From a virus, in IMG/VR virus record IMGVR_UViG_3300010354_000392, positions 1-30,004 of that record: a stretch of DNA of 30,004 nucleotides; one strand, given 5' to 3'. Made by a program: the position numbers and the translations under genes. The notes below the pieces were generated by a model. That model searched no databases. It worked only from the letters and a program-made list of their open reading frames with translations, and was not told the origin of the DNA. This document shows positions 16,310-27,418 of the stretch, piece by piece; the stretch's first letter is position 1; each line of letters starts with the position of its first letter.

Positions 16310-16612
16310 TTATCCTATTAAAATATTAGCCCAGCCGCTTGCTACAAAAGTAGGAGGAAACCCCGGATGTATCGCTGGACTAAACATAGTGATTGCTGGG
16401 ATTCCATTCATAAAAACATTAGGGCATCCCGCACAAACAATATCTGGTGCAGGAAAGGCAACAATTGATTCAGGTGGAGGGTGTGGAATATTCATTGAGC
16501 CTATCATTAAAGCTGGAATACCATTTTGAAAAATATTTGGATGAAAAGGAAACAAAAATGGTAAAGCCCAGTGAAATGAAACTGATATGCCTACTGATGC
16601 TGCTGGTAACAT
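16310..16612 (-). CDS. 5.4: PAAR-like spike tip protein (gp5.4-like)
   Basis: 100 residues, close to T4 gp5.4 (97). It is rich in Pro, Gly and hydrophobics in the PAAR pattern. It contains two near-repeats: HPNIFQNGIPALMIGSMNIP then H (residues 24-44), and CPNVFMNGIPAITMFSPAIH (63-82). Candidate metal ligands are H14, H24, H44, C60, C63 and H82; PAAR tips are known to bind one metal through three His and one Cys. The protein would cap the gp5 beta-helix and form the membrane-piercing point. It lies 3 nt downstream of gp5, the expected partner. No clear Shine-Dalgarno is seen, so it probably depends on coupling with gp5. Confidence 0.85.
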   Translation of the reverse strand: MLPAASVGISVSFHWALPFLFPFHPNIFQNGIPALMIGSMNIPHPPPESIVAFPAPDIVCAGCPNVFMNGIPAITMFSPAIHPGFPPTFVASGWANILIG

Positions 16613-16615
16613 AAC

Positions 16616-18784
16616 TTATGCCGTTGAATCGACTAGATTTAAAAAGGTTATGGGTGAATTTCTCATTTCTTGTTGTGCAGAATTCATATAAGTTGAGTTC
16701 ATATAATTTTGAAGTCCTGAAGCTATCTCTGAATTATTTAAGCCATTTTCTTTTCCAGTTTTGACCATATTTACTATAGAAAACTTAAAATTATCATCAG
16801 CGGACAAAGTGTCTGATACTCTATTTAAAACTGATGACAATCCATCAACGTTTGGCATAGAATCAAAAACCGCTTGTTGAGCAACATCTAAGAATGAATT
16901 AAATAATGGTTCTATAGAACCTATGGCTGAGTTTGTTGAATTGATATTCAGGTTTAAAGCACTCTGAATATCATTAAACGTTTGACCTATAAGGCTAGAA
17001 CCGCTATTCAAAAAATCATTTGCAGCAAATGCTGCTTCTTTTAACCCATCAAGAAATCCACCAGATCCTTGACTGAAAATATCAGCGGCACCACCTAAAC
17101 TGGATAAAGCACCAAGAGGATCATTAACTATAGAAATGCCAGTTTGATATAAATCTTTTGCAATATTAAACCCCTCTTTTAAAGAATCAAAACTAAATCC
17201 GCCTCCTAATCCATCACTTCCAAAAGAAAAATCACCCATGAAATTAGAAAAGGATTCTCCTAGCCCATCAGCAAGATCTCCCATGACAGTTGAGAATGCA
17301 TCAGAATTTAATATGGTTCCCAAAGGATCACTAATAGCATCTTTTACCGTTCCTATGACATCCATCAAACTTCCTGAACTGAGAGACTCAGTTATTGAAG
17401 AAAATGCATCTGATAATCCACTAAAAGATGTTAGCCCACTAAAAGCATCTCCTAAACCAGTAGTCAATTCACCTAATATTCCTCCTTGACTCAAAGTGTC
17501 TGAAAGCCCACCAAAAAAATCTGCACCAGAAAAACCAGCTAGATCGGATAAACCTCCAGCCAAACCTTCAGTAAATCCTCCTAATGATTCAAAAGTGCTG
17601 GAAAAGAAAGACCCAGCAGTTTCAGAAATTGCTCCCGCTGTAGCTTCTCCTATTTTATCGAGTAATGATTTATCCATAGATTCTAAAGCGGTATCACCAA
17701 CTTCACCTAGTGCTGCTCCACCACCCATTCCAATTAAAACTGTGGGACCAAATAAACAGGACACCGCTTTAGATTCTAATATCAATGCGCCGTCTGAAGA
17801 AAATGTTCCTAGTCCTTTTGCAGAAAGACTCATATTTCCTACTTTGGCACTGAGGTCCATATTTCCAGCTTTAGAAATAAGTGCCATATTAATCTGCGCG
17901 CTTCCAGTAATATTTTTCTTTGCTGAAATTCCTACGTCTTCTTTAGCAGATAGACTAGCTGATTTTCCAGCCGACATTCCTATAGCTTCTTTAGCAGAAA
18001 GACTAAAATTTTTACAACTAATAGAAAAGTCTCCATCAACTTGATAATTTGCATTTCCTTTAACAATAACAGTTAAGTTTTCTCCCACATATAATGTACT
18101 GCCAGCTCTAACTGTTTCGCTTTTTTTAGCTTGCACTTTTTCAGTAACAGAACCGTCAGCAGCATATTCAAAATAGGAACCCGATCTGTGAAACAATTGT
18201 ATTCTTTCATCTTTAGGAGTGTCGTCCATCTCAAAAAGATGCCCAGACTCAGATTCATATACATTGTTATAAGGGTAAACGGTTTTTGGTTTTTTTGGAG
18301 ATTCTGGAGAACCTGAAATGACATTGTTCATTTTTTGCTTGAATTGAGATTTATCCATACTCTCATTTCTAGCTGCTCTCGGTGTTGTGGGTTCATCAAT
18401 TGCCCTAGGATATTTTGAAAGTGATTCTCCAAAAACCTCAGGCTTAACTGGTGCTGTGTTCAACTGTGCAGCAGTTCTTGGATCATTGAATCCTAAAGTT
18501 TCGTTCGCCTTTCTCACTGGTATTCCAGATAAGACGCCCATCATGATTGGAAATTGAGCATCTTCACCATCCATGAAAAAACCTGTTACAGTTTCACCTT
18601 CTTTTGGTGCATATGGATTTGGATTATTCAAAGGCAAAACTGGATGAGCCCAAGGCAAATCCTCTGTTTTGAGTTCTTGTTTATTTTCTGTGTGATGCCC
18701 AAAAATTCTAACTTGGCATCTACCCAGCTTGAGTGGATCTATTCGATTTTCAACTACACCCACCCACCAAACAGAATTAATCAT
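16616..18784 (-). CDS. 5: Baseplate hub/spike protein gp5-like, no lysozyme domain, long C-terminal extension
   Basis: 722 residues. Residues 1-100 form the gp5/VgrG OB-fold (WWVGVVENRIDPLKLGRCQV, GETVTGFFMDGEDAQFPIMM, GVLSGIPV). Residues about 175-350 are the spike (ESGHLFEMDDTPKDERIQLF, then strand repeats GSTLYVGENLTVIVKGNANY and SLSAKEAIGMSAGKSASLSA). The T4 lysozyme domain that separates these parts in T4 gp5 is absent; only an about 75-residue linker with a charged Pro-rich stretch is there. Residues 360-722 are an unusual Gly/Ser/Phe-rich extension with repeated FSGLSD-like motifs, then helices. It forms the hub spike with gp27 and the PAAR tip. GGGGTG precedes the ATG. It is a trimer by analogy. 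Confidence 0.88.
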   Translation of the reverse strand: MINSVWWVGVVENRIDPLKLGRCQVRIFGHHTENKQELKTEDLPWAHPVLPLNNPNPYAPKEGETVTGFFMDGEDAQFPIMMGVLSGIPVRKANETLGFNDPRTAAQLNTAPVKPEVFGESLSKYPRAIDEPTTPRAARNESMDKSQFKQKMNNVISGSPESPKKPKTVYPYNNVYESESGHLFEMDDTPKDERIQLFHRSGSYFEYAADGSVTEKVQAKKSETVRAGSTLYVGENLTVIVKGNANYQVDGDFSISCKNFSLSAKEAIGMSAGKSASLSAKEDVGISAKKNITGSAQINMALISKAGNMDLSAKVGNMSLSAKGLGTFSSDGALILESKAVSCLFGPTVLIGMGGGAALGEVGDTALESMDKSLLDKIGEATAGAISETAGSFFSSTFESLGGFTEGLAGGLSDLAGFSGADFFGGLSDTLSQGGILGELTTGLGDAFSGLTSFSGLSDAFSSITESLSSGSLMDVIGTVKDAISDPLGTILNSDAFSTVMGDLADGLGESFSNFMGDFSFGSDGLGGGFSFDSLKEGFNIAKDLYQTGISIVNDPLGALSSLGGAADIFSQGSGGFLDGLKEAAFAANDFLNSGSSLIGQTFNDIQSALNLNINSTNSAIGSIEPLFNSFLDVAQQAVFDSMPNVDGLSSVLNRVSDTLSADDNFKFSIVNMVKTGKENGLNNSEIASGLQNYMNSTYMNSAQQEMRNSPITFLNLVDSTA

Positions 18785-23842: not shown

Positions 23843-24562
23843 ATGTTACCAAAAATTGATGTGCCCATATATGAATTGAAATTATTATCACAAAAAAATC
23901 CAGTTCGATTTAGACCATTTTTAGTAAAGGAACAAAAATTGCTATTGATGGCCCAAGAAGAATCAGAATCAGAAAATTCAATTTCATTAAACACCATAAA
24001 ACAAATATTAACTAATTGTATTTTATCTGAAGTAAATGTTGATGAATTGCCCATGTTTGATATTGAATATTTGTTTTTAAATTTACGCGCAAGATCCATG
24101 GGAGAAATTGTAAATCTGAGTTACAGATGCATGAAGGAAACTGAATCTGAAAAATGTAATAATATAGTTAATTATGATTTAAATATTTTGAACATAAAAC
24201 CTTTTGTTGATGAAAGACATTCCACAAAAATAGAAATAAATGATAATCTTGGAATAATAATGAAATATCCCGATTTGAACATGATTAATCGAATAGATCA
24301 AAATGATGAAAATTCTATTATAACAATAATTTTAAACTGCATAGATTCAATATACGATTCAGAAACAATTTACTATGCCAAAGATATTCCTAAAAAAGAG
24401 TTAGAAGATTTCGTTGATAGTCTTCCGACTTCTATAGTTGAAAAAATAAAATTGTTTTTTGAAACAATGCCAAAAATAAGAGAAACATTGCATTTCAAAT
24501 GTAATAAGTGTTCACATGAAGAAGATATTTTAATTGAGGGGCTAGACTCTTTTTTCGAATAA
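23843..24562 (+). CDS. 26: Baseplate hub assembly/tail chaperone gp26-like (zero-frame product)
   Basis: 239 residues. The start MLPKIDVPIYELKLLS, then NPVRFRPFLVKEQKLLLMAQ, is the signature of the T4 gp26-type baseplate family (Pfam T4_baseplate). Two cysteine pairs, C96/C105 and C220-x2-C223 (FKCNKCSHE), could bind zinc. gp26 is an assembly factor for the baseplate hub in T4. Here it lies directly before the tape-measure gene, the position of the tail assembly chaperones in lambda-like phages. The frame ends GLDSFFE-stop, and the last codons form a slippery T TTT TTC heptamer, so this is probably the shorter of two products. Confidence 0.88.
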   Translation: MLPKIDVPIYELKLLSQKNPVRFRPFLVKEQKLLLMAQEESESENSISLNTIKQILTNCILSEVNVDELPMFDIEYLFLNLRARSMGEIVNLSYRCMKETESEKCNNIVNYDLNILNIKPFVDERHSTKIEINDNLGIIMKYPDLNMINRIDQNDENSIITIILNCIDSIYDSETIYYAKDIPKKELEDFVDSLPTSIVEKIKLFFETMPKIRETLHFKCNKCSHEEDILIEGLDSFFE

Positions 24563-24599
24563 GTTTACATAATGATAATTTAAAAAATTATTATGATGT
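24536..24599 (+). other. Candidate programmed -1 ribosomal frameshift signal
   Basis: Three parts are visible. GAGGGG at 24536-24541 is an SD-like stimulator 8 nt before the slip site. T TTT TTC at 24550-24556 is a slippery heptamer in the correct zero-frame phase (TCT TTT TTC). A hairpin of about 15 bp follows (24567-24581 pairing with 24585-24599, AAA loop, one A.G mismatch, one G.U pair), after a 10-nt spacer. Stem and spacer were worked out by hand. The zero-frame stop is at 24560-24562. Confidence 0.72.
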
Positions 24600-24771
24600 T
24601 AATTTCGCACTAATGCAACATCATAAGTATAGCCTAACGGAACTTGAACAAATGATTCCGTGGGAAAGAGAAATTTATTTAACAATGTTAATGAAATATA
24701 TTCGTGAGGAAAATGAAAAAATTAAATTAAGACAATCAGAAATAAACGCAAAACAAAGAATTGGACGCTAA
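24556..24771 (+). CDS. -1 frameshift extension of the gp26-like chaperone (T-like domain)
   Basis: After a -1 slip the ribosome would read CGA ATA AGT and add 71 residues, giving a 309-residue fusion. The added part is RISLHNDNLKNYYDVNFALM, then QHHKYSLTELEQMIPWEREI, then YLTMLMKYIREENEKIKLRQ and a short basic end. The HHKYSLTEL...PWEREIY pattern looks like a real conserved domain and is typical of small ORFs beside gp26 in T4-like phages. The only in-frame ATG early enough (24613) has no ribosome site. The stop (24769-24771) is 1 nt before the tape-measure ATG. By analogy with lambda gpGT, it would load chaperone onto the tape measure. If it is not made by frameshift, it would need re-initiation at 24613. 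Confidence 0.75.
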   Translation, partial: RISLHNDNLKNYYDVNFALMQHHKYSLTELEQMIPWEREIYLTMLMKYIREENEKIKLRQSEINAKQRIGR

Positions 24772-24772
24772 A

Positions 24773-27418
24773 ATGGCAGATGGAATAAAAAATTCAAGGC
24801 TCGCAGAAATATTTCTGGCTCAACAAAAGGCCGGCAGAGGCACTCTTGGTGCATTAGCAGGTACAATTGGAGGGCGCGCCAGAGAAAAATTAGATATTCG
24901 AAATGTTCTTTTTGGACCTTCATACAAAAAACCAACATCTTTAGCCCAATCTATAGGAAGATCAATATTTGGAACTGGATATTCGGCTGCACCGAGAAGA
25001 GGTCTTGAAAGAGAAATGGGAGCTCCTTTAGAGACTTCACAAAAAACTGTAGAAGTATTGAGCGCGGTGAGAACCAGTCTATCGTCTATTGATAATAAAA
25101 TGACAATTCTAGCAAAAAATTCTATTCAACAAAATAAGGTTGCTAGAGATGTAAATGTGATTCGACAAAATGTGATAAGGTTGACTAAAAATGCAACTGG
25201 AAAAGCAGCTACTTCAGCGGATATGTTTTTTATGCGAGCCAAACAAAGAGAAAGTGAATATGAAAAACAATTCAAAGAAAAGCGTGAAACGATTGGTGAA
25301 AAATCAACAGATAAAGGTTCAACAACAGGATCTGAAAAATCTTCATTATTCGGAAAAACATTAAAGACTGGTGCAAGTTTTGCCGCAATTTATGCAATAT
25401 TTCAAAGTTTAGAAACTATTGTCAATTCTATTCAGAAAGCCTTTGAAAATTTTAAACCCGAATCAATAAAATCATCTATTGAAAATTTTCGTAAAAATTT
25501 TTCATTTGCCGACATTTTAGAATCTATAAGCAAAGGATATGCTTCTGTTATGAAATTTTTGAAAGATGGCGTTAATAAAATTCCTAGTGAAAAAATTGGT
25601 GAATTTATAACTTTTATGACAAATAATTTTTTAGAAACTTTTAAGTTTGCTGCTGAGACTTTTTGGAGAGGGTTTCAAACTCTCAGCCCAGAACAAATGG
25701 GAATTGCTGCTGGCGCTAGTGCAATTTATGGATTACTTTTTGGTGGTGGTCCTTTAGGAATAGGAATAGTTGGAGTTCTTTTGAAAAAAGTTTTTAAAGC
25801 AGTTGCCACCACCATAGCAGCTAATCAAATAGGAAAAAGTATAGGTGGTGTCATTTCGGGTACTTTAGGTGGTTCGATGAAAGGAATGGCCTCTTGTTGT
25901 TGTGATGCTGCTGGAGTAAATACTTCTGGAAGTGGTGATAAAAAAGGAAGAAAAGGCTCCAAAGGAAGTAGTCGTGGAGGGCGTCTTGGATCTTTGGGTG
26001 ATAAAGCAAAAAAGGCTACAAAAACATTAAAAGGTGCTCTTTCAAAAGTACCTAAAGGACTTAAAGGTGGTTTGGGCGGATTATTGGCTTCGGTTGGATT
26101 AGAGGTTGCCGCTAATTCTGCTAGAGAAAGTGGGCAAGAAGATTTGGCCGATGGTATAGATGATGTTAATACTGTTTTGAGTGCTGCAAGTGCAGGGGCA
26201 ATGATTGGTTCTATAGTTCCGGGAGTAGGAACTGCGGTCGGCGCGGCCGTAGGAACCGCAGTAGGCGCAGGTTCAGCAATATTTGATAGATTAAGTGAAA
26301 TGGATCCCGTAAATACTAGAGGAAGAGGAGCACCAGGAAAATCCGCAGGCGATTCTGGTGAATTGTCACAATGGGAAAAAGATTTTGATGCAAGAATGGA
26401 AAGAAAAAATGCATTGGCTAGAAGACAAGCTGCTGCTAATGCCGTTGGTGGTGCGGGCTCAAATGTTAGACGAACTGGTGGTGGAGGAATTACTGGAAGT
26501 GGAACTGCACAAAAAGTTAATTCTACAGGAGGCGCAGAAGAATTAACACAATGGGAAAAAGATTTTGACGCAAGAATGGAAAGAAAAAATGCACAAGCTC
26601 AAAGGGTTCCAGCAGGAACTTTGCCATTATCTTCGGCCGTTGGGGGACAAGTGCAACAAGTTTCAGGTTCTTCAGTTAATCTTCCTACTAATTTAGATTT
26701 TGATGCTTATAAAAATAAGGTTGGTTATTTTGAAAGTAGAGGAAATTATGCTCAGCCACCAAACAAATTTGGATATGTTGGTAAATATCAATTTGGAGCT
26801 CAAGCTCTAGAAACTTTAGGTTACTTAAAGTCTGGTTCTTATTCTAGGTTTAAAAATAAAGCCTTGTTAGATCCAAACAATTGGAAAAACGGATTATCAT
26901 TAGAAACTTTTTTGAATAGTCCAGGATTGCAAGATGAAGCATTTGCTAAATTAACAAAAAATAATTTTGATACACTTAAATCTAAAGGTGTTGTAAATGA
27001 GAATATGACTTCAGATCAATTATCTGGTTGGTTATATGTAGCTCATGGAGTTGGTGCAGGCGGCGCAATTAAATTTAGTCAGGGACAAAATCCTTCTGAA
27101 GGATTTGGCACGACCGCTAGTCAAATGTTTGCAAAAGCCTCTGGACAAGTGCCTACAATGCCAGCTGGAGGAATTGGAGGAACTGGCGCTTCTCCTTCCT
27201 ATTCTGCATCTCTACCTAAGATGACTGGAGATATGTTCACTTCACCATTTGGTAATGAAATGAAAGCCTTCGGCGATAACATTGTTAATGTAATTAACAA
27301 TACAATGGCTAAAGGAGAGCAGGCCGCTAGTGAGGCTTTAACTTCAGTGGATATGGATTCGATAAAAGATATGTTTAATCCAATGATTGCTAGAGCCACA
27401 TATGGATTTACATTATAA
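24773..27418 (+). CDS. 29: Tape-measure protein with C-terminal muralytic (transglycosylase-like) domain
   Basis: 881 residues from ATG 24773; an in-frame TTG at 24761 is rejected because GGAC before this ATG and the 1-nt gap to the chaperone stop fit better. Order: a basic N-terminus, helical region, hydrophobic segments (EQMGIAAGASAIYGLLFGGG onward, residues about 313-350), a rare Cys triplet (375-377), a glycine-zipper stretch (VGTAVGAAVGTAVGAG, about 485-500), and a 60-residue duplication at 530-649. From about 640 a lysozyme-like domain begins: YFESRGNY with candidate catalytic Glu654, then GYVGKYQFG at 667-675, as in lytic transglycosylases. The position after the chaperone and the hydrophobic helical build indicate the tape measure (T4 gp29 role). 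The enzyme part probably opens peptidoglycan during DNA entry. Confidence 0.85.
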   Translation: MADGIKNSRLAEIFLAQQKAGRGTLGALAGTIGGRAREKLDIRNVLFGPSYKKPTSLAQSIGRSIFGTGYSAAPRRGLEREMGAPLETSQKTVEVLSAVRTSLSSIDNKMTILAKNSIQQNKVARDVNVIRQNVIRLTKNATGKAATSADMFFMRAKQRESEYEKQFKEKRETIGEKSTDKGSTTGSEKSSLFGKTLKTGASFAAIYAIFQSLETIVNSIQKAFENFKPESIKSSIENFRKNFSFADILESISKGYASVMKFLKDGVNKIPSEKIGEFITFMTNNFLETFKFAAETFWRGFQTLSPEQMGIAAGASAIYGLLFGGGPLGIGIVGVLLKKVFKAVATTIAANQIGKSIGGVISGTLGGSMKGMASCCCDAAGVNTSGSGDKKGRKGSKGSSRGGRLGSLGDKAKKATKTLKGALSKVPKGLKGGLGGLLASVGLEVAANSARESGQEDLADGIDDVNTVLSAASAGAMIGSIVPGVGTAVGAAVGTAVGAGSAIFDRLSEMDPVNTRGRGAPGKSAGDSGELSQWEKDFDARMERKNALARRQAAANAVGGAGSNVRRTGGGGITGSGTAQKVNSTGGAEELTQWEKDFDARMERKNAQAQRVPAGTLPLSSAVGGQVQQVSGSSVNLPTNLDFDAYKNKVGYFESRGNYAQPPNKFGYVGKYQFGAQALETLGYLKSGSYSRFKNKALLDPNNWKNGLSLETFLNSPGLQDEAFAKLTKNNFDTLKSKGVVNENMTSDQLSGWLYVAHGVGAGGAIKFSQGQNPSEGFGTTASQMFAKASGQVPTMPAGGIGGTGASPSYSASLPKMTGDMFTSPFGNEMKAFGDNIVNVINNTMAKGEQAASEALTSVDMDSIKDMFNPMIARATYGFTL
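26360..26593 (+). repeat. 180-bp-spaced internal direct repeat in the tape-measure gene
   Basis: Copies at 26360-26413 and 26540-26593 both encode QWEKDFDARMERKNA and differ at only a few bases. The start-to-start distance of 180 nt is 60 codons, so a 60-residue unit seems to have been duplicated. After the 54-nt core the copies diverge into Gly/Ala/Arg-rich linker. Confidence 0.85.

Follow-up and report, generated by a model that had tools for sequence, protein, structure and literature searches.

The locus examined here raises the question of whether a gp26-type gene of a T4-like phage yields two products, the longer of which acquires a further domain through a -1 ribosomal frameshift just ahead of the gene's stop codon. 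The locus lies in a window of 30,004 nucleotides (the whole stretch of DNA that was analysed, positions 1 to 30,004 of IMG/VR virus record IMGVR_UViG_3300010354_000392), whose other genes are nearest to those of T4-superfamily pelagiphages, methylophages and cyanophages; the phage is marine and T4-like, a relative of the pelagiphages and cyanophages. A sequence-only reading of the window had proposed that a Shine-Dalgarno (SD)-like element, a slippery heptamer and a hairpin form a three-part frameshift cassette in the position of lambda G/GT. It is very probable that the window holds a T4-like tail assembly chaperone locus, in which a -1 shift adds a gp51 domain to gp26. At the level of sequence, a -1 frameshift that appends a conserved tail domain to a gp26-type protein, before a putative tape-measure gene, is well supported; that the shift takes place in cells, and its rate, we infer.

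Layout of the locus and identity of its products

The gp26-like gene occupies 23843..24562 on the plus strand (ATG 23843, TAA 24560-24562) and encodes a protein of 239 amino acids, the short form and the equivalent of “G” or TAC-N. This zero-frame protein is T4 gp26-like, matching Pfam T4_baseplate (PF12322, E 2.8e-59) and PHROG 150 (baseplate hub, E 2e-64), and its AF2 model has a pLDDT of 92. The SD-like GAGGGG stands at 24536-24541 and is followed, after a gap of 8 nt, by the slippery heptamer T TTT TTC at 24550-24556, which is in phase with gp26 and two codons ahead of its stop; both plus-strand elements are where the sequence-only reading had placed them. The -1 frame (24556..24771, plus strand) runs for 71 codons from C24556 to the TAA at 24769-24771 and is the equivalent of “T” or TAC-C. 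A shift would yield a predicted fusion of 309 amino acids with the junction peptide CSHEEDILIEGLDSFFR, in place of the C-terminus CSHEEDILIEGLDSFFE predicted when no shift occurs. Because the -1 frame is closed upstream by a stop that overlaps 24535-24537, the shift is confined to approximately 24538-24562, and T TTT TTC is the fitting site within that interval. In-phase XXXYYYZ heptamers are otherwise common in the A/T-rich genes of the window, but in the last 12 codons of the five plus-strand genes the one at 24550 is the sole in-phase heptamer; in the plus-strand genes of the window, the -1 frame stays open for 71 codons at 14 of 1718 positions (0.8%).

The claim that the open -1 frame encodes a conserved domain is upheld by its match to PHROG 634 (baseplate hub assembly catalyst, E 1e-25), which is the cyanophage “gp51” domain, and by tblastn matches in 564 phage records, chiefly from cyanophages and vibriophages, in many of which the domain match begins on the final base of the match to gp26. 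The domain also matches the final columns of the gp26 family's own profile, PHROG 150, and is 42% identical to Aeromonas gp51 over 43 amino acids. A fold search of the PDB with both AF2 models gave nothing significant, so that no solved tail chaperone is among the significant matches, and a sequence search against solved structures gave no match. The top-probability fold matches of the gp26-like model, 3klu (YqbN, which we take to be an XkdN-type tail chaperone; probability 0.30, E 1.8) and 3fgx (probability 0.23, E 4.6), were discounted on their E values. The gp26-like protein (23843-24562) also carries zinc-ribbon-like Cys pairs, such as CNKC near the C-terminus, which are replaced in many cyanophage relatives.

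The -1 frame has its first ATG at 24613, within the conserved domain and with no SD sequence, in agreement with the earlier statement that the frame has no ribosome site of its own; as had likewise been noticed, the next gene begins (ATG 24773) 1 nt past the -1 stop. This gene (24773..27418, plus strand) encodes a putative tape-measure protein of 881 amino acids, a role suggested by its position and length. None of the family searches with this protein marks a tape measure, the sole library match being a lysozyme-like segment at residues 639-793. This segment resembles profile positions 339-491 of PHROG 27932, its lysozyme part, and a later part of that profile (528-699) is matched by the gp5-like hub protein of the window (16616-18784); the latter gene is adjoined by that of a small PAAR-like protein (PHROG 281, 16310-16612), the likely spike tip. 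The tail lysozyme may have been transferred from the hub to the tape measure.

Conservation of the junction among relatives

The sequence-only reading had proposed an alignment of gp26-type genes with their 3' neighbours as its own check, and junctions were compared at a total of 207 loci from isolate genomes and IMG/VR, collected by single-protein scans. The gp26 protein and the domain lie in separate frames at 194 of these, and the domain is in the -1 phase at 194/194; a domain in another phase with its own start, which the reading had named as evidence against itself, was not encountered (0/194 in the 0 or +1 phase). The other 13 loci are those of the T4 group, with in-frame fusions or with gp51 present and gp26 on the opposite strand, and two in which the domain was missed by the profile; in both of the latter, inspection revealed a -1 frame that resembles the domain. 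When the set is dereplicated at 50% gp26 identity, 32 lineages remain, whose slip sites are TTTTTTC in 21, TTTTTTT in 8, and TTTTTTG, AATTTTC and GGTTTTC in one each, so that the heptamer T TTT TTY/G is conserved in 30/32 lineages.

The codons around the slip site are constrained beyond the amino acids that they specify. The codon ahead of TTT, which is AGT, GAT, TCT, AAT or GCT and encodes S, D, N or A, ends in T in 110/110 genes at 90% dereplication (log10 P -15.1) and in 30/30 at 50% dereplication (log10 P -6.2), probabilities that assume independent lineages and are indicative. The second Phe codon is TTC in 100 of 109 genes, compared to a background of 27%. At codon -5, GAG, which produces the SD-like GAGGG, is used in preference to GAA in 64/82 genes at 90% dereplication (background approximately 25-26%, p 7e-23) and in 12/18 at 50% dereplication (p 1e-4), a bias which indicates that the upstream SD-like element is under selection. 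From the slip point to the core of the domain, the -1 frame has entropies of 0.93, 0.68 and 1.41 by codon position and contains no stops, and the gp26 frame closes in 71/71 aligned genes; this pattern shows that the -1 frame is under protein-coding constraint from the slip point on. Such conservation across relatives excludes chance as the source of the layout, and the proposal of a gp26-type frameshift in the G/GT position is borne out by the conservation of both the signals and the -1 frame.

Conservation thus extends to two parts of the proposed cassette, namely the heptamer and the SD-like element, but the third, the downstream stem, is lineage-specific. A hairpin is present in the window, as had been described, at 24561..24605 on the plus strand, with its main part beginning 10 nt past the heptamer, but it is imperfect and A/T-rich (-9.0 kcal/mol), and its z-score of -3.2 on 49 nt weakens to -1.0 on 84 nt, when 35 nt are added; it is a possible weak stimulator. 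Across 83 lineages the mean z of the downstream stem is -0.84, compared to -0.29 in control stretches, and values below -2 occur in 22% compared to 7% of the control stretches. When the stem of the window was sought in its near relatives, it was found in partial and weaker form in the nearest one (L012) only and was absent from the others. The hairpin was rejected as a conserved third element of the signal. An Rfam search of the window gave no match.

The T4 group provides a natural control for the remaining elements. The T4-type gp51 (in Escherichia phage PP01 and Aeromonas phage 60AhydR15PP) consists of a full PF12322 body plus the domain in a single frame; it matches Pfam T4_baseplate with E 4e-55, its alignment is continuous through the junction (DVF-KLLVNPDEIFTFYQIN versus SFF-RISLHNDNLKNYYDVN), and its AF2 model has a mean pLDDT of 87. 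T4-type gp26 and gp51 are also related to one another (BLASTP E 1e-5). In the gp26 genes of this group the Phe-Phe pair or its position is mostly kept, with codons such as GAG TTC TTT that offer no slippery site. Judging by these codons, phages that encode the long form in a separate gene have lost the slippery site.

A second departure is seen in the Ackermannviridae (L010, L183-L197, L202, L203 and L206), where the domain lies in the -1 frame behind gp26 with no tandem heptamer. The slip region there reads R ATT TTC ATY followed by a stop (TAA), or G GTT TTC ATC followed by a stop (CAG GTT TTC ATC TGA), and only the re-pairing from TTC to TTT is good. It can be suggested tentatively, as a possibility that is rather doubtful, that these phages use a different, single-tRNA shift at NTT TTC, in which case the fusion would have persisted after its signal was lost. 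The domain is unannotated in both of the annotated records in this branch that were inspected (L010 and L203).

Several other loci show individual peculiarities. In a single pelagiphage-like contig (L067, 2980-3030), GTT TTC replaces TTT TTC at the slip site and the -1 domain is intact. The gp51 domain of the large Aeromonas phages AS-yj and Ah1 (L198 and L205) is unannotated in the -1 frame behind T TTT TTC, and in L002, L003 and L207 the deposited gp51 coding sequence begins at an internal codon, so that the first conserved residues of the domain are lost.

Alternatives to a ribosomal frameshift

If gp26 and gp51 were two separate genes, then gp51 would be translated independently, or by termination-reinitiation after gp26, with no frameshift. 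The overlap or adjacency of an ATG to the gp26 stop in nt-1, S-CRM01, phiM7 and RHph_N34 is in favour of this explanation, and many GenBank records annotate gp51 as a separate coding sequence. It is nonetheless improbable, because the first -1 ATG of the window lies inside the conserved domain and has no SD, only 8/79 dereplicated loci offer any SD-backed start in the opening 25 codons of the -1 frame, and conservation of that frame sets in at the slip point, ahead of the annotated starts; it also offers no account of the T kept at the wobble position or of the single-frame T4-type gp51. Reinitiation may contribute in the lineages that have an ATG at the gp26 stop.

Transcriptional slippage, in which the T run gains a base and a population of fusion mRNAs results, is suggested by the six-T run at 24550-24555 and is less probable still. 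Six T residues are short for slippage by bacterial RNA polymerase, the run sits in a constant codon phase, the SD-like element is selected, and the Ackermannviridae, with only four T, retain the -1 layout. The strong preference for TTC over TTT as the second Phe codon also argues against it, since the T run is not lengthened.

A sequencing or assembly error, in which one missing T has split a single open reading frame such as that of the T4-type gp51 at a six-T homopolymer, has a negligible probability and is excluded by conservation, because the six-T or an equivalent layout is repeated in isolate genomes and IMG/VR contigs of many lineages.

Proposed mechanism and comparison with known systems

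In the frameshift mechanism proposed for the window, the majority of ribosomes would terminate at the gp26 stop and produce the 239-residue short form, and a minority would be held up by the SD-like GAGGGG, possibly with help from downstream structure. The most likely event is then tandem -1 slippage, in which the tRNAs would move from T TTT TTC to TTT TTT and the shifted ribosomes would continue in the -1 frame to make the 309-residue gp26-gp51 fusion. If the lambda G/GT pair is taken as a guide, the short form would coat the tape-measure protein, the C-terminal domain of the long form would recruit tail tube subunits, and both forms would be absent from the virion. A chaperone role is suggested by gene order, domain make-up and T4 genetics, and the earlier statement that two chaperone forms are made “in a fixed ratio” is likewise an extrapolation from lambda. 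T4 gp51 is needed for assembly and is not found in the particle, its function being unknown (PMC3004832), a combination which is as would be expected for a GT-type chaperone.

The sequence-only reading knew of no description of frameshifting in the gp26 family, a claim that does not stand. Vladimirov and colleagues reportedly found frameshifting to be conserved in several T4-like groups, with separate genes 26 and 51 in T4, and are said to have identified gp26 as the short form and the gp51 part as the C-terminal domain. Their paper (Vladimirov et al., Virology 2022) is cited in the PRFect paper for T4-like phages with a short gene and a fusion gene (PMC10885494) and in the Adele paper for slippery signals made of T runs in the chaperone genes of T4-like phages (PMC12846349). 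Two older sources are accounted for by the gp26/gp26-gp51 reading: a 2016 review which describes G-T frameshifting as general in long-tailed phages “except T4” (PMC5009743), and a 2010 comparison in which cyanophage gp51 lacks approximately 200 N-terminal residues and gp51 is missing in Aeh1 (PMC3037559). On that reading, the short cyanophage gp51 is what a shift adds to the end of gp26, and the absence reported for Aeh1 is probably an annotation artefact. Because the explanation has been published in outline, the value of the present work lies in confirmation, in a new instance, and in the correction of database annotation, since databases usually split, truncate or miss the fusion.

The single-frame T4-type gp51, together with a T4-group gp26 that has no slippery site, marks gp26/gp26-gp51 as the equivalent of lambda G/GT in the T4 superfamily. 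The window shares with lambda the order of tail tube gene, short chaperone, -1 extension and tape measure (putative in the window), and differs in that no sequence relation is shown, the window has an SD-like element, and its heptamer is T TTT TTC where that of lambda is G GGA AAG. The lambda pair binds the tape measure and recruits tail tube subunits (PMC5009743). PF12322 is common to the window and to T4 gp26/gp51, which are hub assembly chaperones (PMC3004832), and T4 gp51 equals the predicted frameshift product in domain make-up; unlike the window, T4 has both forms as separate genes and its gp26 has no slippery codons. With E. coli dnaX the window shares an SD-like element approximately 10 nt upstream of an in-phase heptamer, but the stem of the window is weak (-9 kcal/mol), rich in A/T and no general feature of its relatives. 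Relative to the systems of Vladimirov et al. 2022, as that work is represented in the papers that cite it, the window is an uncultured pelagiphage/cyanophage-like contig, and the measures of wobble and SD constraint, like the finding that the stem is not conserved, come from the present analysis.
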